Part shown: positions 18 through 8,478 of the stretch, one piece after another
Position numbering within the stretch: position 1 is the stretch's first letter
Layout of the letters: each line of letters begins with the position of its first letter
Source: Limnoraphis robusta CS-951
GTDB lineage: Bacteria; Cyanobacteriota; Cyanobacteriia; Cyanobacteriales; Microcoleaceae
Direction: 5' to 3'
Assembly: GCF_000972705.2 (NCBI RefSeq)
Contig: NZ_LATL02000360.1
Location: 1-8,478 of the forward strand
DNA length: 8,478 nt
Position numbers and translations under genes: made by a program
The notes under the pieces: model-generated
What the model saw: only the letters and a program-made list of their open reading frames with translations
What the model was told of the DNA's origin: nothing
Database searches by the model: none

Positions 18-1298
18 CTAAGCTGACGCTATAGGGGTCGCTTCTCTTGAATTTCTTCTAGAGCGTTTTATAGTGAGTTTCACGCCCAGACCCACTTTTT
101 TAATTAAGATGGCACTGTTCAAATCTCTATCAAGTTCAGTTGAACAATGAGGGCAACTATGCCATCTTTCCGATAATTCTTTAGGTACAATATTGAGACA
201 ATTTGAACAGAATTGAGACGTATTTCTAGGATTAACTTTGACGACTTTCACTCCAGCGTTTTCGGCTTTGAATGATAGTATTTCGACAAATTGACCTAGA
301 CCTGCATCTGCCAAACTTTTATTTAACCCCGACTTAGCCGCTTGACCATTAGGTAAGTATTTTCCGGTTTCATCCTGTTTAGGCTTACATCGCTTTATCA
401 TATTGCGAATCTTTAAATCTTCGATAAAGATTACATCGGACTTAGCGATTAATTGATTAGCCTGCTCATAATGAAACTGCTTTCTCTGCCTTTGAATTCT
501 TTGGTGGATCTTGGCAACCTTTCCGTACAGGAGTTTTCTGGCTCTACTTCCCTTCTTTCTACTAGCCGCTTTTCGTTGTAGCTTTTCCAGCTTGTCTTCA
601 GCTTTACGGAAATATTTAGGAATGGGAATTGCTTCACCAGTCGATAAAGTTCCAAATTTCTCTAGCCCTAAATCAATCCCGATACTATTATTCTCTGTTG
701 GTTCAATATCATCAGGGTTGAAGTCAGGAACAGTGTTATCAACTAAGGAAAGTGTTACATAAAAACCATCAGCTTTTTTTGTGACCAGAGCCGTTTTTAT
801 TGTGACACCTTCTGGTATAGGTCTGTGATATATGAGCTTAATCTTGCCCAGTTTAGGAAGTTGAATGTACCCGTCTTGAATACAATCAACCTTGACTCTA
901 GAGTAAGAAAAAGTTCTATATCGACCTTTACTTTTAAAGCGAGGTTTACCACTTTTCTTCCCGTTACAATCGCCTTTTAAATACCTGTCAAAAGCTAGTT
1001 TGACTCGTTTCACCATATCCTGTAATACATCAGCATGAATGTCTTTGTATTCAGGAAAGAGTTGCTTAAGCCTAACTAAGTCTCGCTTTTGACCATAGTA
1101 TTCCGGCTGTTCTCTTAGTCCTGGTAAATGAGAAACCAGTATCGAACAAGAATTAATAGGGCATCTGTTGCGCTCCCACCAATCAAATCTATCCCCTAGA
1201 AGATAGTTGTAATGGCGGCGTAACAACTCAAGCCAGTGGTTGATTCTGGCTTTCTGCTCAGTCGTAAGTCTTAATCGATACTGATATGCTAATCTCAT
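18..1298 (-). CDS. tnpB: TnpB, RNA-guided nuclease of an IS200/IS605 element
   Basis: This 426-residue protein has the usual TnpB length and all expected active-site parts. An N-terminal helix-rich OrfB region (about 1-200) is followed by RuvC-I with GIDLG at 207-211 (Asp209), RuvC-II with FIEDL at 291-295 (Glu293), a zinc ribbon with Cys364, Cys367, Cys382 and Cys385, and RuvC-III with DRDLNSA at 390-396. Known TnpB proteins use an omega RNA from the 3' end of the gene and the element right end to cut DNA carrying the vacated insertion site, which favours element retention. Nothing suggests inactivation: no frameshift, and the C-terminus runs to a normal TAG. The ATG start faces the tnpA start. 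The omega-RNA guide would come from sequence beyond base 1, so its target cannot be read. Whether the nuclease is active is inferred from intact motifs only. Confidence 0.93.
   Translation of the reverse strand: MRLAYQYRLRLTTEQKARINHWLELLRRHYNYLLGDRFDWWERNRCPINSCSILVSHLPGLREQPEYYGQKRDLVRLKQLFPEYKDIHADVLQDMVKRVKLAFDRYLKGDCNGKKSGKPRFKSKGRYRTFSYSRVKVDCIQDGYIQLPKLGKIKLIYHRPIPEGVTIKTALVTKKADGFYVTLSLVDNTVPDFNPDDIEPTENNSIGIDLGLEKFGTLSTGEAIPIPKYFRKAEDKLEKLQRKAASRKKGSRARKLLYGKVAKIHQRIQRQRKQFHYEQANQLIAKSDVIFIEDLKIRNMIKRCKPKQDETGKYLPNGQAAKSGLNKSLADAGLGQFVEILSFKAENAGVKVVKVNPRNTSQFCSNCLNIVPKELSERWHSCPHCSTELDRDLNSAILIKKVGLGVKLTIKRSRRNSREATPIASA
20..43. repeat. Candidate right-end hairpin of the IS200/IS605 element
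   Basis: AAGC at 20-23 pairs with GCTT at 40-43 and GAC at 25-27 pairs with GTC at 37-39, leaving T24 bulged and a 9-nt loop. It overlaps the last tnpB codons, where this family often keeps its right-end hairpin and the omega-RNA scaffold. The stem is only 7 bp, so chance is possible. Confidence 0.35.
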
Positions 1299-1329: not shown

Positions 1330-1749
1330 GTGACTACAAAATCTTATAAGTCAACCGGACGTGCTGTTTCAAGCTTGCAAGCTCACTTGGTGCTTACAAC
1401 CAAATATAGAAGAAAGGTGTTAACTAGACCTATGCTTGAACGACTTAAAGACCATATACATAATCTCTGTTCAAAATGGAACGTCCTCGTTATTGAATTC
1501 GTTGGCGAGGACAACCACATCCACTTGCTTTTTTCTTACTACCCGCAGTTAGATTTGTGCAAGTTTATTAACAACTTAAAAACGGTTACGAGTCGATTAA
1601 TTCGTAAAGAGTTTGAACAAGAATTAAATCAGACTTACCGAGGAAAAGCAGTATTATGGAATGGATCTTACTTCATTGCTTCATGTGGTGGAGTTACTGT
1701 TGATGTGTTGAGAAAATACATCGAAGGACAGGAAGTTCCTGTGCATTGA
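1330..1749 (+). CDS. tnpA: TnpA, Y1 HUH transposase of an IS200/IS605 element
   Basis: This 139-residue protein matches the single-domain Y1 transposase that excises and inserts IS200/IS605 elements as single-stranded DNA. Visible marks are the N-terminal LTTKYRRKVL segment (22-31), the metal-binding HUH motif NHIHLLF with His63 and His65, the LWNGSYFIASCGG stretch (109-121), and the catalytic Tyr130 in LRKYIEGQ with Gln134 one helical turn further. The length is normal and the frame is intact. The start chosen is GTG at 1330, because it keeps the conserved N-terminus at the usual distance; no strong ribosome site precedes it. It diverges from tnpB across 31 bp, so the two genes probably share a short promoter region. 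It would act on the hairpins proposed at 1774-1802 and 20-43. Confidence 0.94.
   Translation: MTTKSYKSTGRAVSSLQAHLVLTTKYRRKVLTRPMLERLKDHIHNLCSKWNVLVIEFVGEDNHIHLLFSYYPQLDLCKFINNLKTVTSRLIRKEFEQELNQTYRGKAVLWNGSYFIASCGGVTVDVLRKYIEGQEVPVH
1728..1742. repeat. 15-bp perfect palindrome at the tnpA 3' end
   Basis: ACAGGAA and TTCCTGT form two 7-bp arms around a single central G, inside the last codons of tnpA. It could be part of the subterminal left-end structure or a weak transcription-stop hairpin, but it has no following T run. The arms are visible directly; a role is a guess. Confidence 0.4.
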
Positions 1750-2227: not shown

Positions 2228-2258
2228 ATGTTGGGTTTCCTACCTCAACCCAACCTAC
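2228..2258 (-). repeat. Solo GTAG-headed REP-like hairpin repeat
   Basis: Read on the minus strand it starts with GTAGGTTGGGTT and ends AACCCAACAT; GTTGGGTT and AACCCAAC form an 8-bp stem around a 9-nt loop. It is the same family as the arrays at 7387 and 8255. It lies between the vapB start and the broken yoeB end and differs from the copy at 2726 at one position. Confidence 0.85.
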
Positions 2259-2276: not shown

Positions 2277-2438
2277 TTAATAATGATATCTGCAAGCAAG
2301 AATTCTAATCTTATCATCTAACACTTGATAGACTAAGCGGTGTTCTTGGTCAATCCTTCTAGACCAACAACCCGATAGTTCATGCTTTAATTTTTCAGGT
2401 TTGCCAGTTCCTTGAAAGGGAGTCCGTCGGATCAAATT
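2277..2438 (-). pseudogene. yoeB: YoeB-type toxin (RelE superfamily), N-terminus missing
   Basis: This frame encodes the last ~50 residues of a YoeB ribosome-dependent mRNA interferase: [20 protein letters not shown], then [13 protein letters not shown], then a C-terminal CRYHY stop. These match residues 35-84 of E. coli YoeB, including the Arg of EHRLVY and the terminal His-Tyr pair used in catalysis. The first ~34 residues, which form the first strand and helices, are absent; there is an in-frame stop at 2448 and no ATG. The remnant begins exactly at the end of the upstream antitoxin frame, so a deletion of about 100 bp seems to have joined antitoxin end to toxin middle. A TTG at 2435 could start a short peptide, but it would lack the fold. 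Confidence 0.85.
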
Positions 2439-2641
2439 CCCAGCTTTTCACAGGCTTCCTCTAATCCCATTCCACCTTGACGATTTTTTGCTTCTAAAAG
2501 ACGGCGTTTCATCGTTTCACTTTTTAACAAATAAGCAGTTTCCCTTTCCGATTCAATATCGCGCCATAAATCAATCGGAACAATGACAGCAACGGTTTCT
2601 CCCCGTTCATTGAATACATACTGAATATCTGTTTGGCTCAT
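2432..2641 (-). CDS. YefM/Phd-like antitoxin paired with the broken YoeB
   Basis: ATG at 2641 gives a 69-residue protein; a TTG start at 2674 would add 11 residues but is less likely because [15 protein letters not shown] matches the usual start of this cyanobacterial antitoxin group. Residues 1-30 ([19 protein letters not shown]) resemble the beta-alpha DNA-binding half of Phd/YefM proteins. The rest is helical ([20 protein letters not shown], 36-55) and ends EEACEKLGI, the tail that would wrap the toxin. It is complete, sits directly upstream of the YoeB remnant, and is preceded by a good TATAAT box with an adjacent palindrome, suggesting normal autoregulation. With the toxin dead it is an orphan antitoxin. 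Confidence 0.8.
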
Positions 2642-2687
2642 CTTTTTATTCGTACCTTGATTGAGTTTTAGCAACGATTATGAGACT

Positions 2688-2725: not shown

Positions 2726-2756
2726 ATGTTGGGTTTCGTACCTCAACCCAACCTAC
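2726..2756 (-). repeat. Solo GTAG-headed REP-like hairpin overlapping a gene end
   Basis: Same 31-bp hairpin as at 2228, same orientation, one base different. Its GTAG (minus strand 2756-2753) contains the TAG stop codon of the coiled-coil gene at 2753-3403. With the copy at 2228 it brackets the yefM-yoeB remnant. Confidence 0.87.
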
Positions 2757-3515: not shown

Positions 3516-3932
3516 ATGCCACTTGCAGACAACAATCAACCCCCAGATTATATCGGATCGGGGATCGCATTTCCCGGTCAAACGAACGTCACCGGAGGGG
3601 TGCTGCTGAGTTCATCAACTCGTAACATCGAGGAGTCAATTTGGATTATCCTGAGTACCGACCTCGGAGAACGGGTCTATCGGCCCGATTTTGGCTCCCG
3701 TTTGTCGGAGTTGGTGTTTGCGCCCCTCAACCGCGAAACGCTTTTACTGCTGCGTCTCTACGTCGAAGAAGCGCTGAAAATGTGGGAACCCCGGATTATT
3801 TTGCGAGAAGTGCGAACCAACCCAGACCCAATTAGAGGTATGGTAGAACTGGATATTATCTATCAACCCAAAAATAGTTTTGAAACTCGCAGTTTGGTCT
3901 ATCCATTTTACCTCGAACCAACTGTTCAATAA
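3516..3932 (+). CDS. gp25/gpW-like baseplate wedge protein of a contractile injection system
   Basis: This 138-residue protein fits the GPW_gp25 family, whose T4 gp25, TssE and Afp9 members form the baseplate wedge and start sheath assembly. Key marks are IEESIWIILSTDLGERVYRP (38-57) followed by DFGSRL, the hydrophobic helix LLLLRLYVEEAL (76-87), and the conserved EPRI motif at 91-94 in MWEPRI, the EPR signature of gp25/TssE. The N-terminal 35 residues (with GIAFPGQTNVTGG) are a short leader typical of injection-system versions. ATG at 3516 has no clear Shine-Dalgarno, common in cyanobacteria. It is first in a three-gene operon, 33 bp before the J-like gene, and follows a TATAAT box. Length and motifs are normal, so it should be functional. 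Confidence 0.9.
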   Translation: MPLADNNQPPDYIGSGIAFPGQTNVTGGVLLSSSTRNIEESIWIILSTDLGERVYRPDFGSRLSELVFAPLNRETLLLLRLYVEEALKMWEPRIILREVRTNPDPIRGMVELDIIYQPKNSFETRSLVYPFYLEPTVQ

Positions 3933-3965
3933 TAGCGATCCGTATTAACTTTTAAAATTAGCAGC

Positions 3966-6305
3966 ATGGTGAATTTTGATTTTCTGCCGAATTTACCCAA
4001 ACCGAATCTAGACGATCGCAAATTTGAAGATTTAGTGCAGGAATGTTTGCTTCGGATTCCCCGCTATTGTCCCGAATGGACGAACCACAATCCGAGCGAT
4101 CCGGGAATTACGATGATTGAACTGTTTTCCTGGCTAACCGATCAGATGTTGTATCGGTTCAATCAAGTTCCGATCCGCAATTATATTGTATTTTTGGAGA
4201 TGTTGGGGATTCGTCTAAAGCCACCTGCTGCGGCGCGAACATTGATCACCTTTGAACTGACAAAAGAGCAAAATATACCCTTTCCAATTCCGGCGGGAAC
4301 GGAGGTGGCAACCGAACGCACGGAAACCGAAGAAGCGATTATTTTCAGCACGGATAGAAAGTTCTTAATCGGAATTCCTCGGATACAATGTTTTTTGAAA
4401 GCCACAGAATATGATTATAATGAAAATCTGAGCAATGAGAGTTTGGAGGCTATTTTTCCGCGATCGCGATCGTTTTGGAGTCGCCAAGAAAACGGAGAAT
4501 GGCTGACAACCATTCGCACTCCTATTTTTGAACAATCACCCCAACGGGGAAATTGTTTTTATCTGGTGATTGAACCCAAAGCAACGGGCGAAGAAAATAG
4601 CATTGAAGGTAATATTCTCGCCATCACGTTTAAAGGACAAGCCGCCACCGCAACGGGAATTGATCCGAAAAATCCGCCCCGAGAGTGGGAAGCCTGGAAT
4701 GGTCGAGAATGGGTTTCGATTTTGCGACAGGAAAACGACGATCGCACCGATGGATTTAGTTTTGCAGAAATTACCCAACAAGGCCCGAATCCCGAACAGG
4801 GAGCGGATGTGATTTTGCACCTCCCAAATCGTTGGCCGGAGGATGATTTGGGAACTCAATATCGGGGTCATTGGATTCGTTGTATTTATCGATATTTGCG
4901 AGATAATGATGAGCAAGAATACGGTTACAGCAGTTCTCCGTTGATTTTTGGTTTGTCGGTGCGTGCCATTGGCGGAACCGTTGAGGCGACGCAATGCGTT
5001 TGGGTGCGCGATGAATTGTTGGGGGTGAGTAACGGTAAAGCGGGTCAGGTGTTTGAATTGCAGGGAAAACCCGTTCTCCAACGACAGAGCAACGAATATG
5101 TTGAAATTCAGCCCCCTGGCGATCGCAAACCCCGCGAACGATGGCTGGAAGTCCCGGATTTTGCCGATTCTAGAGCGAACGATCCCCATTATTTAATTGA
5201 CTCCCAAACGGGTGTGGTTCAGTTTGGCCCGCTAATTCGAGAACCAAGTCAATTGAGGTTACAAACCCAGGCGCGAACCCGTTTTCAAACTCAAGACAGT
5301 CTGCAAACCCAGTTTACCGGAACAGAAGCCTCTGCGGATGCGCTTTCTCCGGCTAACGTTGAGACGGAAGGAAAGGCCCAAGAGCGTCAGTATGGTCGGG
5401 TGCCGCCACCGGGATCGGAAATTTATATGAAGGCTTACCGCACGGGGGGAGGGATGAGGGGAAATGTTGAGGCGGAAACGTTAACGGTATTGCGAACGGC
5501 GATCCCCTACGTCAAGCGGGTGATTAACTACGAAGCGGCGACGGGAGGAACGGAACCGGAGTCTTTGGAAAAGGCGGTTTTGCGGGTACCGGGACTGTTG
5601 CGATCAAGTCAACGGGCGATTATTCGGGATGATTTTGAATACCATGCGATGCGAGTTCCGGGTGCGGATGTGGCTCGCGCCCATTGTTTGGATGCGAACA
5701 TGGAAATGGGTAGACGTTGGATCGAACCGGATGCTATTAAGCCGGGTCAGGTGTGTATTTTAACGATACCAAAGGCGGAGATTCAAGATTTGAGCCGGGG
5801 TTTATCTCCTGAAGAATTAAGGCTCGATGATGAACTGACTAAAAAGATTAAAGATTATTTGGACGATCGCAAACCGTTGGGGGTGCAAATTTTGCTGCGA
5901 GAACCTAAATATATTGGGGTGAAAGTTGAGGCTGTTGTTTTGGTTGGGCGGGATGGCGATCGCGAATATATTCGTTCTCAATTTCTGCAACTTTTGTATC
6001 GGTTTCTCAATCCCATTACGGGCGGAACAAACGGTCTGGGCTGGCCGTTAGGACATCCGGTTTATCCATCGGATGTGGTCGCCTATTGTCAGAAATTTTA
6101 TCAGCAAATTCCTCACGTTCGTTATTTAAAAGCGTTAGAACTGAGGGGAATTCGTCCACAAGATCGCCCGAATTGGATTGTTGCGCCCATACCCGAACCT
6201 GTTATTTATCCGGGGGAATTTGGGGTTGTTTGTTCTTGGGATAATGGAGAGGAGAACGAAGAACGAAAAACCGCTCACGAGATTAAGTTTATACTGGATA
6301 ATTAA
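3966..6305 (+). CDS. Baseplate J-like assembly protein (TIGR02243 type; Afp11-like)
   Basis: This 779-residue protein resembles the large J/gp6-like baseplate proteins of phage-tail-like injection systems, which form the wedge ring that holds the spike and triggers sheath contraction. Residues 34-69 (YCPEWTNHNPSDPGITMIEL, then the LFSWLTDQMLYRFNQVP helix) are the family N-terminal signature. A beta-rich middle (about 90-430) includes GHWIRCIYRY (301-310). The C-terminal J core includes YRTGGGMRGNV (491-501), AVLRVPGLLRSSQRAIIRDD (537-556), and TGGTNGLGWPLGHPVYPSDV (685-704). Residues 430-480 form a polar, repeat-like stretch with several QTQ units, probably a surface loop. Three HIP1 octamers lie in the gene. 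It starts 33 bp after the gp25-like gene and ends 20 bp before the next, so the three are almost certainly co-transcribed. The product is cytoplasmic until assembled. Confidence 0.9.
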   Translation: MVNFDFLPNLPKPNLDDRKFEDLVQECLLRIPRYCPEWTNHNPSDPGITMIELFSWLTDQMLYRFNQVPIRNYIVFLEMLGIRLKPPAAARTLITFELTKEQNIPFPIPAGTEVATERTETEEAIIFSTDRKFLIGIPRIQCFLKATEYDYNENLSNESLEAIFPRSRSFWSRQENGEWLTTIRTPIFEQSPQRGNCFYLVIEPKATGEENSIEGNILAITFKGQAATATGIDPKNPPREWEAWNGREWVSILRQENDDRTDGFSFAEITQQGPNPEQGADVILHLPNRWPEDDLGTQYRGHWIRCIYRYLRDNDEQEYGYSSSPLIFGLSVRAIGGTVEATQCVWVRDELLGVSNGKAGQVFELQGKPVLQRQSNEYVEIQPPGDRKPRERWLEVPDFADSRANDPHYLIDSQTGVVQFGPLIREPSQLRLQTQARTRFQTQDSLQTQFTGTEASADALSPANVETEGKAQERQYGRVPPPGSEIYMKAYRTGGGMRGNVEAETLTVLRTAIPYVKRVINYEAATGGTEPESLEKAVLRVPGLLRSSQRAIIRDDFEYHAMRVPGADVARAHCLDANMEMGRRWIEPDAIKPGQVCILTIPKAEIQDLSRGLSPEELRLDDELTKKIKDYLDDRKPLGVQILLREPKYIGVKVEAVVLVGRDGDREYIRSQFLQLLYRFLNPITGGTNGLGWPLGHPVYPSDVVAYCQKFYQQIPHVRYLKALELRGIRPQDRPNWIVAPIPEPVIYPGEFGVVCSWDNGEENEERKTAHEIKFILDN

Positions 6306-6325
6306 GACTAAAATTCTCAAATTGG

Positions 6326-7390
6326 ATGACTCAAACTAACTCTCGTCCAACCCTTTATCTTCGACTTACCGCCATGCAGCTTCCCGATGGTGGGAGTTTA
6401 GAAAAGTTGGCGTTATCTCCTCGTCAAACCGAAGATACAAGAAAAACAACCTTAAGGGTTTATCCGGGAGAACCGAGTGAAATTATCCTGAAATTAGAGA
6501 ATCAGTCAGAAGAATCTCTCACACTAAACTTACAGCTAGAAATTGAACCCAAAATTAATCCAAATTGGTGTCAATGGTATCAGCAAAGCGTTAATAATGG
6601 TGTTACTCAACCCCAAGACGTTCGAGGGTTCAGCTATCAACTAACAATTGCGCCTCAACAACAGCAAGAAATCGAAATTGAGTTTGAATTTCCGCAAAGT
6701 TTTTTTGAAGAACAAACCGCGTTAACTTCGGAACAGAGTAAACTAGAAATTAATTATTTTGCCCAACTTTTTGTTTATAGCAATCATTTCAATAATAGGT
6801 TAATTGGTTATCAAGTTTTTGACTTAAAAATTGCTCCTAGAATAGAATATCTGGACTTTTTACCTGTTATTTACAGTGAAACAGATTTTCTCAGTCGTTT
6901 CTTGAAAATACTTGAAGAAACCTATGACCCAGCCATTCAAACCACCGATAATTTATGGGCCTATCTTGACCCGCTAACGGCACCAAAAGCGCTTCTTCCT
7001 TTTTTAGCCCAGTGGGTAGGTTGGAAAATGGATTCTCGCTGGCCTCTTGATATTCAACGCCGCCTCATTCGCAATGCAATTGTTCTTTATCGTTGGCATG
7101 GAACTCGTAAAGGTTTGCGGTTTTATCTGCATCTTTTTACGGGTTTACCCCTCGATGAAGACTTACCAGAAGCCGAGAAACATATTAATATTTGGGAAGA
7201 TTTTAATCGGGGGTTTGTTCTCGGAGCAACTCATATTAATCAAGATTCGATGTTGGGAGGCGGACGCGCTTATCACTTTATTGTTCGCTTGCGAGTTGAC
7301 TTTCCAAATCAGATTGATGAACCGTTAGTGCGAGAAATTATTGAACAATATAAACCCGCTTTTTGCACCTACGAACTTAACATCATGTAG
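6326..7390 (+). CDS. Tail protein I-like baseplate protein (TIGR02242 type; Afp12-like) with beta-rich N-terminal extension
   Basis: The C-terminal half (about 172-354) fits phage tail protein I-like wedge proteins of injection systems: YLDFLPVIYSETDFLSRFLK (175-194), the LDPLTAPKALLPFLAQWVGW segment (214-233), then RRLIRNAIVLYRWHGTRKGL (245-264) and HLFTGLPL (269-276). This protein links the J-like wedge to fibres or the baseplate rim. The first ~170 residues are extra: alternating hydrophobic strands such as TTLRVYPGEPSEIILKLENQ (41-60) and QLTIAPQQQQEIEIEFEF (105-122) look like one immunoglobulin-like beta sandwich. It starts 20 bp after the J-like gene. Its TAG stop (7388-7390) is part of the first REP-like repeat, so the last residues (LNIM) may reflect repeat insertion. 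The C-terminal assignment is firm, the Ig-like call is inference. Confidence 0.87.
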   Translation: MTQTNSRPTLYLRLTAMQLPDGGSLEKLALSPRQTEDTRKTTLRVYPGEPSEIILKLENQSEESLTLNLQLEIEPKINPNWCQWYQQSVNNGVTQPQDVRGFSYQLTIAPQQQQEIEIEFEFPQSFFEEQTALTSEQSKLEINYFAQLFVYSNHFNNRLIGYQVFDLKIAPRIEYLDFLPVIYSETDFLSRFLKILEETYDPAIQTTDNLWAYLDPLTAPKALLPFLAQWVGWKMDSRWPLDIQRRLIRNAIVLYRWHGTRKGLRFYLHLFTGLPLDEDLPEAEKHINIWEDFNRGFVLGATHINQDSMLGGGRAYHFIVRLRVDFPNQIDEPLVREIIEQYKPAFCTYELNIM

Positions 7391-7686
7391 GTTGGGTTGA
7401 CAAAGGAAACCCAACATCAAAGTAGGTTGGGTTGACAAAGGAAACCCAACATCATGTAGGTTGAGTAGTAGGTTGGGTTGACGAAGGAAACCCAAAATCA
7501 AAGTAGGTTGAGTAGTAGGTTGGGTTGACGAAGGAAACCCAAAATCAAAGTAGGTTGGGTTGACAAAGGAAACCCAACATCAAAGTAGGTTGAGTTGACA
7601 AAGGAAACCCAACATCAAAGTAGGTTGGGTTGACAAAGGAAACCCAACATCAAAGTAGGTTGGGTTGACAAAGGAAACCCAAAACT
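7387..7686 (+). repeat. Tandem array of REP-like hairpins, 35-bp period
   Basis: This gene-free stretch holds eight near-complete units starting at 7387, 7422, 7468, 7515, 7550, 7585, 7620 and 7655. Each starts GTAGGTTGGGTTGA (one has GTAGGTTGAGTTGA) and ends AAACCCAAC or AAACCCAAAA, with a short ATCAAA or ATCAT joint. GTTGGGTT and AACCCAAC form the stem. Two 12-bp partial units (GTAGGTTGAGTA at 7456 and 7503) precede full units, making an exact 47-bp duplication (7456-7502 and 7503-7549). The array starts in the stop codon of the baseplate operon and ends 10 bp before the RAYT stop. Possible effects are transcript termination or 3'-end stabilisation for the operon. Confidence 0.95.
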
Positions 7687-7696
7687 TAATATAATT

Positions 7697-8239
7697 CTAT
7701 TCAAACCCAATCCCTTCTATAAAGTAAATTTCTTCATTTTCACCCCAATTCAATGTTAGCAAACCATTTTTTACAAACCGATGAAAGCTAGAATATTGCC
7801 AGTCTTTAGGAGACTTAACCAAGCCATGTTTAACCGGATTATAATGAATATAATCGACGTGTTGAATCAAGTCTTTATCATCTCGAATACAATGTTCCCA
7901 AAATCGCCTTTGCCAAATTGCTTGTTCATTTTTTCGTTGTCGGGATAAGGAATATTTTTGTTTATATTTGGAGTCACATCGACGGCTAAATTCACTTTTA
8001 ATCAGTCGCCAACGGGTTGAAAAGTCGCAATCATTTTCAGGTAATGTCCAGATACAATGCAAATGATCGGGGAGAATTACTATAGCATCAATTGTAAAGG
8101 GATGATTTCCCATAACATAGCGAAAAGCTTCCCGCAGAAGTGCTATATTATCAGGTTCGCAAAGGATTTTACGCCGTTGATAGGTGACAACAGTAAAAAA
8201 GTAAGTTCCCCCGTTAATTTTTGCACGACGGTATCGCAT
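7697..8239 (-). CDS. REP-associated tyrosine transposase (RAYT, Y1 HUH family)
   Basis: This 180-residue protein has the features of RAYT proteins, single-copy relatives of IS200 TnpA that bind and cut REP hairpins. It starts MRYRRAKINGGTYFFTVVTY, has the HUH metal motif LPDHLHCIWTLP with His59 and His61, the RAYT-typical IWQRRFWEHCIRD (108-120), and the catalytic Tyr130 in HVDYIHYNPVKHGLV (127-141). All key residues are intact. It is only distantly similar to the TnpA at 1330, so it is not part of that IS. The ATG at 8239 has only a weak GAGTG before it. A REP hairpin begins 16 bp upstream of the start and a REP array ends 10 bp from the stop, so the gene is packed between likely substrates. 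Related RAYTs recognise hairpins preceded by GTAG, which these repeats have. Confidence 0.93.
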   Translation of the reverse strand: MRYRRAKINGGTYFFTVVTYQRRKILCEPDNIALLREAFRYVMGNHPFTIDAIVILPDHLHCIWTLPENDCDFSTRWRLIKSEFSRRCDSKYKQKYSLSRQRKNEQAIWQRRFWEHCIRDDKDLIQHVDYIHYNPVKHGLVKSPKDWQYSSFHRFVKNGLLTLNWGENEEIYFIEGIGFE

Positions 8240-8254
8240 ATTTCACTCAAAAAA

Positions 8255-8478
8255 GTAGGTTGGGTAGAACGAAAGTGAAACCCAACATTAAAGTTAACAC
8301 AACGACCGCAAAAGTAGCAAAAGTAGGTTGGGTAGAACGACAGTGAAACCCAACATTAAAGTTAACACAACGACCGCAAAAGTAGGTTGGGTTGACAAAG
8401 GAAACCCAACATTAAAGTTAACACAACGAGCGCAAAAGTAGGTTGGGTTAACAAAGGAAACCCAACATTAAAGTTAAC
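8255..8478 (+). repeat. Second tandem array of REP-like hairpins, 56-68-bp period, running off the window
   Basis: Four units start at 8255, 8323, 8382 and 8438, the last cut by the window end. Each is a GTAG-headed hairpin followed by a spacer of about 25-27 bp containing ATTAAAGTTAACACAACG. The first two hairpins have the variant loop after GTTGGGTAGAACGA; the third is the same type as in the first array, and the fourth differs in having GGGTTAAC. Unit one carries an extra 9 bp (GTAGCAAAA), which again contains GTAG. The array is in the same direction as the first one and lies upstream of the RAYT gene. No gene is seen here. Confidence 0.93.

Follow-up and report, generated by a model that had tools for sequence, protein, structure and literature searches.

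The window (the whole stretch of DNA that was analysed, 8,478 nucleotides) contains a gene that, by sequence comparison, encodes a group-2-type REP-associated tyrosine transposase (RAYT, TnpAREP) and that lies between GTAG-headed hairpins, whose 7-bp lower stem (GTTGGGT/ACCCAAC) also flanks and accompanies the close relatives of this RAYT. We consider it very probable that enzyme and hairpin form a pair and that together they represent a REP-RAYT unit (REPtron) from a filamentous cyanobacterium close to Limnoraphis, Lyngbya, or Capilliphycus; that the RAYT mobilizes the REPs is less sure than the pairing itself. The pairing would link a short repeat that is abundant in cyanobacteria with one particular clade of enzymes. 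The association of REPs with RAYTs in cyanobacteria is already published in passages of PMC3733652, PMC6006769, and PMC3116915. A literature search with the exact string GTAGGTTGGGTT returned nothing related, and searches on cyanobacteria together with RAYT or REP, on TTGGGTT, and on RAYTs yielded no study of this pair in the literature covered, most subscription journals lying outside the search.

RAYT Gene and Hairpin Arrays in the Window

The following features were annotated in the window:

2230..2258, minus strand: dispersed single REP copy (pattern match; among the copies folded)
2728..2756, minus strand: dispersed single REP copy (pattern match; among the copies folded)
6326..7390, plus strand: tail/baseplate gene, its end altered at the array (comparison of protein ends)
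7387..7682, plus strand: left head-to-tail REP array of eight full GTAG hairpin units
7456..7467, plus strand: shortened REP head of 12 nt without a hairpin (pattern match)
7503..7514, plus strand: shortened REP head of 12 nt without a hairpin (pattern match)
7697..8239, minus strand: RAYT (TnpAREP) gene, 180 aa (NF047646 match, PDB 4er8 match, catalytic and GTAG-contact columns)
8255..8466, plus strand: right REP array of four GTAG hairpins (8255-8286, 8323-8354, 8382-8410, 8438-8466)

The reading frame of the RAYT gene is open from end to end, and its protein matched the NCBIfam model for REP-associated tyrosine transposases (NF047646) with 220.7 bits, above the cut-off of 80. By sequence, the E. 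coli TnpAREP (PDB 4er8, E-value: 4e-44) was the sole solved relative at an E-value of 1e-3 or below, and the RAYT shares 97% identity with a Capilliphycus salinus protein. The catalytic residues named in the original prediction, i.e., the HUH motif (His59, His61) and the single catalytic Tyr130, were read both in the sequence and in the alignment, where H59 and H61 are each conserved in 140/140 and Y130 in 139/139 of the filled RAYT rows. Residues W109, Q110, E115, H116, and R119 occupy the positions of the E. coli GTAG contacts W94, Q95, E100, H101, and R104, a comparison that covers E. coli positions 94, 95, 100, 101, and 104, the C-terminal contacts G160 and E161 lying outside the alignable part. 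The intact Y1 transposase that had been predicted to lie between GTAG hairpins on both sides was thus recovered as an open 180-aa RAYT, flanked by eight hairpins in the left array and four in the right.

The units of the left array start at positions 7387, 7422, 7468, 7515, 7550, 7585, 7620, and 7655; successive starts are 35 bp apart in five cases and 46-47 bp apart in the other two. Their stems are perfect and at least 7 bp long in seven of the eight units, and the unit at 7585 has one stem mismatch. In the right array, inside which the window ends, the start-to-start spacing is 68, 59, and 56 bp. All twelve hairpins at the two sides of the RAYT gene share one orientation. Two minus-strand copies (2230-2258 and 2728-2756) agree with the earlier statement that the repeat is also dispersed elsewhere in the window, which holds 14 REP hairpins in total, with loop lengths of 9 and 14. 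Six of these 14 were folded as single-stranded DNA and gave -6.1 to -7.1 kcal/mol with the GTAG unpaired at the base of a short hairpin, as in a REP. When up to two mismatches were allowed, GTAGGTTGGGTT had 16 matches in the window vs. a shuffle mean of 0.59, and 16 was reached in 0 of 200 shuffles.

The left array borders the tail/baseplate gene, the product of which ends in ELNI-M-stop in the window, with bases 2-4 of the first GTAG providing the TAG stop, a detail that, like the uniform orientation of the twelve hairpins, is absent from the original prediction. Four relatives of this protein (75-97% identity) end in ELNI(I/V)(R/Q)E(F/Y/L), with an additional S in one case; the identity to the Limnoraphis robusta Tam1 protein is 97%. 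This places the array within the final codons of the gene. An empty site for the insertion was sought in 291 genomes of one order, 10 genomes of one family, and viral contigs, where no relative of the tail gene was close enough (best 56%), and for this reason only protein ends were compared at the border. The region 3516-7390 carries genes for baseplate gp25, baseplate J, and the tail protein, as found in contractile injection systems or phage-like tails. No RAYT was found in the viral contigs.

Hairpin Abundance and Proximity to RAYT Genes

For the survey 388 genomes were drawn evenly from the cyanobacterial class of Calothrix elsteri and searched with the pattern GTAGGTTGGGTN7-15ACCCAAC, which was present in 161 of them; the reversed control pattern gave one match, in genome G312. 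The RAYT protein was matched at an E-value of 1e-3 or below in 175 of the 388 genomes. Genome classes were split by the best E-value at 1e-69 and 1e-20, cut-offs that were chosen after the list was seen, and seven genomes that hold a close RAYT in fragments only were separated by hand. The GTAGGTTGGGT hairpin was present in 33/34 genomes with a close full RAYT (median 38.5 copies), in 7/7 with a close-RAYT fragment only (median 57), in 52/67 with another RAYT (median 5), in 42/67 with a weak RAYT match (median 1), and in 27/213 without a match (median 0), counts and statistics that ignore kinship among the genomes. Hairpin abundance is thus unequal between genomes with a close RAYT and those without a match, so that the original prediction passed its own refuting condition of equal abundance where the RAYT is lacking, and this result was unchanged when the analysis was limited to genomes of at least 3.5 Mb. 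Genome G201 was counted in the class of other RAYTs, although it is placed with the close group on the later tree; it has no copy of the hairpin.

The proximity of hairpins to RAYT genes was analyzed for 30 close loci (L044-L073), and at 29 of these the gene has a matching hairpin no more than 300 bp away, at 23 on both sides. Within this distance 76 hairpins were observed vs. 0.19 expected from genome density, the local count admitting loops of 3-20 and the genome pattern loops of 7-15. The head was not preset in a further count, in which every maximal hairpin within 300 bp of 140 distinct RAYT loci was taken: GTAG precedes a hairpin at 113 of these loci, and the next commonest head at 15. 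In flanks 1.2-1.5 kb away at 30 loci, GTAG stood before 1 of 44 hairpins. When species genomes were scanned, 43 related loci were obtained, and 37 of them, spread over several phyla, have one or more GTAG hairpins within 700 bp. The sister RAYTs L052 (G121) and L165 (G201), which belong to the close clade on the tree, have no GTAG hairpin nearby and no hairpin of the GTTGGGT type genome-wide, and were counted against the pairing. A search for a fixed CT or CA cleavage site beside the hairpins gave no strong candidate; CT, the E. coli site, reached at most 16%, five bases before GTAG.

Stem Types and RAYT Phylogeny

On a tree of 140 RAYTs, of which 116 were labeled with 19 kinds of stem, stem type changes 23 times vs. 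at least 65 times in 200 shuffles. Two neighboring tree groups, the joining of which is weakly supported, hold the window RAYT and its close relatives in 44 rows, with the stem GTTGGGT in 38 rows, GTCGGGT (found behind GTAG in two close relatives of the window RAYT) in two, CGTGGGT in one, and none in three. In other RAYT clades the stems behind GTAG are GGTGCGT, GATGCGT, GGTGCAT, GATGGGC, and GGTGGGC.

A second pattern, GTAGGGTGCGTN7-15ACGCACC, was present in 108 of the 388 genomes. Among genomes of at least 3.5 Mb this second hairpin was found in 23/28 with the second RAYT type only (mean 6.7 copies) vs. 18/35 with the first only (mean 1.4; p = 3e-4), whereas copies of the first hairpin averaged 10.2 with the second RAYT only vs. 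39.5 with the first only (p = 3e-6); here the second type was called by its tree place among the fetched loci and may be missed in some genomes, and G189 and G368 count as first type, having been classed under other RAYTs in the abundance analysis. Each hairpin is also slightly commoner in genomes with the opposite RAYT type than in those that lack both types (p = 0.04 and 0.02). At least ten copies of the second hairpin occur in five genomes without a called second-type RAYT, one of which (G403) has 125. As far as computation reaches, abundance, gene proximity, and a second clade with a second hairpin support the original prediction that the hairpin repeat is the REP substrate of this RAYT. 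The survey provides RAYT-hairpin pairs that differ in their stems and in part coexist in one genome, so that the choice of repeat by RAYTs could be tested by exchange.

Four RAYTs of Methylococcales (L007-L010) are 53-61% identical to the window RAYT and have GTCGGGT or GTTGGGT stems, with 7-29 GTTGGGT hairpins in each of their genomes; they may reflect transfer between phyla.

Putative Residue-to-Base Code

We tentatively propose, as a possibility that we rate as doubtful, that RAYTs read the lower stem of their REPs by a simple residue-to-base code, in which stem base 7 would be determined by residue 78, base 6 by residue 100, and base 2 by residue 107. After two rows with odd labels had been dropped, stem base 7 was T in 95, C in 16, and another base in 3 of the 114 labeled rows. 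Residue 78 is Arg or Lys in 88/95 RAYTs with T7 and in 0/16 with C7, residue 100 is Arg, Lys, or His in 99/101 with G6 and in 1/12 with A6, and residue 107 is Ala in 42/48 with T2 and in 0/66 others; L164 and L166 are exceptions to the rule. This covariation is strong by count but not significant by independent pairs, of which one or two lie on supported branches, and shared ancestry could be the source of the same counts. Since the independent changes are too few for significance, the code serves as a lead only. If true, a single cyanobacterium could harbor several RAYTs, each forming an orthogonal pair with repeats of its own.

Residue 78 lies near the helix that holds K82 in E. coli, and residue 100 in a stretch that is absent from the E. 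coli protein in the alignment. Base T11 of the E. coli-type REP presumably corresponds to stem base 7. Passages of PMC8266576 report that the E. coli group-2 TnpAREP binds the folded single-stranded REP, that no change in the GTAG is tolerated, and that the enzyme contacts T11 and G32 of the lower stem, mutation of either harming binding and cleavage. For subclass 2.2 a short insertion between alphaC and beta4, near the REP-binding region, is described in a passage of PMC6006769.

Repeats in Genomes Without a RAYT and Growth of Arrays

At least ten hairpins were found in 20 of the 280 genomes without a RAYT match at an E-value of 1e-20 or below (weak match or none), and the enzyme is therefore not needed to keep the repeats. 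The conservation of the GTAG head had a median of 0.91 in 17 of these 20 genomes vs. 0.90 in 27 genomes with a RAYT or fragment that were chosen by copy number (p = 0.61). The extreme case is G362 (L124-L153), a single 3.8-Mb contig with 785 GTAGGTTGGGT hairpins and no RAYT match; its sole Y1 match (139 aa, 127.7 bits) has the length and score of IS200-type proteins in the same search. The family of this genome was represented by nine genomes, and in the remaining eight the sole RAYT genome has 71 copies and the seven without a RAYT have 0-2. Among 100 of the 785 places listed for G362, many hairpins stand in head-to-tail arrays with loops identical within an array, similar to the window. From these arrays and the kept GTAG heads in RAYT-less genomes it follows that hairpins can persist, and arrays can form, without the enzyme; perhaps the repeats multiply locally without a RAYT. 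In such a genome the maintenance and local expansion of REPs are uncoupled from the enzyme that presumably spreads them. Because arrays of this kind also occur in a RAYT-less genome, we infer that the same-orientation arrays of the window grew by local tandem duplication and not by repeated RAYT insertion.

Other Y1 proteins were considered as hidden partners in the RAYT-less genomes and rejected: 19 of the 20 genomes have Y1 proteins (129 matches), but only 3 of the 50 loci inspected (L074-L123) have a GTTGGGT hairpin. These three loci (L088, L111, and L114) lie in two genomes of more than 100 copies each and carry a single hairpin, which at L114 is about 65 bp from the Y1 match; they were taken as chance.

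At 64 of the 140 loci a hairpin lies within 300 bp on each side of the gene, and the nearest pair at these 64 was inverted with GTAG outward at 36, both minus at 15, both plus at 8, and reverse-inverted at 5. The window locus is of the both-minus kind, unlike the commonest, inverted arrangement, which was counted against the reading as a REP-RAYT unit.

Mobility of the Repeats and Alternative Explanations

By analogy with the E. coli enzyme, the RAYT would bind the folded single strand via the unpaired GTAG and the lower stem, would nick beside the hairpin with Tyr130, and might so assist in the copying or movement of REPs, in many cases of inverted pairs. An alternative, which we regard as unlikely, shares the pairing of enzyme and hairpin and differs on mobility: the RAYT would read the hairpins, but its role would be limited to that of a domesticated single-strand nuclease, or the hairpins would serve just as regulatory sites around its own gene, and the dispersed copies would be relics, with nothing moving now. 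Judging from dN/dS ratios, which were below 1 (0.06-0.58) in 25/25 comparisons of RAYT pairs with at least 75% nucleotide identity that are not mutually independent, the RAYT genes are under purifying selection, which was counted for the pairing as well; together with the persistence of intact-headed copies in RAYT-less genomes it would also suit this alternative. Dispersed copies are, however, numerous in most close-RAYT genomes (at least ten in 27/34) and, among the places listed, often form inverted pairs with short spacing, which speaks against this alternative.

That the RAYT merely landed among pre-existing REPs, which insertion sequences sometimes target, and that the hairpins are not its substrate, seems very improbable. 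Genomes with many hairpins and no RAYT could be accounted for in this way, but stem types are clade-specific even where two or three RAYTs with differing stems coexist, as in at least five genomes (G341, G236, G391, G231, and G305), and the 6.7-Mb genome G264 holds just two such hairpins, both of which flank its RAYT, at 65 and 79 bp. It is barely tenable that arrays and RAYT constitute an autonomous IS200/IS605-type element, mobile as a whole, since, despite the Y1 transposase family and the hairpins at both sides, the IS200 transposase model (NF033573) gave 24.6 bits for the RAYT protein, below the cut-off of 55, and the flanking hairpins differ from locus to locus in distance and orientation, which does not fit fixed element ends.

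Comparison with Known REP-RAYT Systems

With its DHLH, W-Q-x4-E-H-x2-R, and YIHYNP motifs and the GTAG head of its hairpins, the window RAYT resembles TnpAREP/RAYT group 2 (subclass 2.2), although its host is a cyanobacterium and subclass 2.2 is predominantly proteobacterial according to a passage of PMC6006769. The hairpins are similar to E. coli-type REPs in two respects: an A comes after the 7-bp lower stem (in 90% of 83 distinct flanks), and the upper part is larger. An A also follows the three hairpins beside the Kluyvera RAYT L034. They differ from the E. coli-type system in the GTTGGGT stem and in their one-way order, and the RAYT has Ser where E. coli has K82, a bulge contact.

The cyanobacterial GTAG-15 repeats share, as described in passages of PMC3733652, the GTAG tag, loops of 9-15 nt (9 and 14 in the window), cyanobacterial hosts, and the occurrence of several REP families per genome, a likeness by description and not by consensus sequence; unlike the present survey, the passages concerned do not follow RAYT clades in cyanobacteria. 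REPs in a RAYT-bearing cyanobacterium are also reported for Nostoc punctiforme in a passage of PMC3116915, there as doublets (REPINs), whereas the window has head-to-tail arrays and single copies without an inverted doublet. RAYTs flanked by inverted REPs, the coevolution of RAYTs and REPs, and a link of copy number to the RAYT were described in 2010 in passages of PMC2817692, in which RAYT-REP systems are held to have arisen within the gammaproteobacteria.

Additional Observations

A CGATCGC motif, which we take to be HIP1-like, occurs no more than 20 bases ahead of the GTAG in a hairpin that flanks the RAYT at loci L001, L002, L003, L054, L056, L057, L061, and L063. On contig 22 of G092 (76497-77561), about 8 kb from a RAYT, eleven hairpins with the same loop follow each other with an exact period of 104 bp. 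The window further contains adjacent and divergent genes for a TnpB (RNA-guided endonuclease family; 18-1298, minus strand) and an IS200-type TnpA (1330-1749, plus strand), both of which are open. Between the two dispersed REP copies lies a Phd/YefM-like antitoxin gene (2432-2674, minus strand), which scored 25.3 bits and so stayed under the Pfam threshold (29.8); the sequence at about 2281-2420 resembles, by eye, the remains of a YoeB-type partner.
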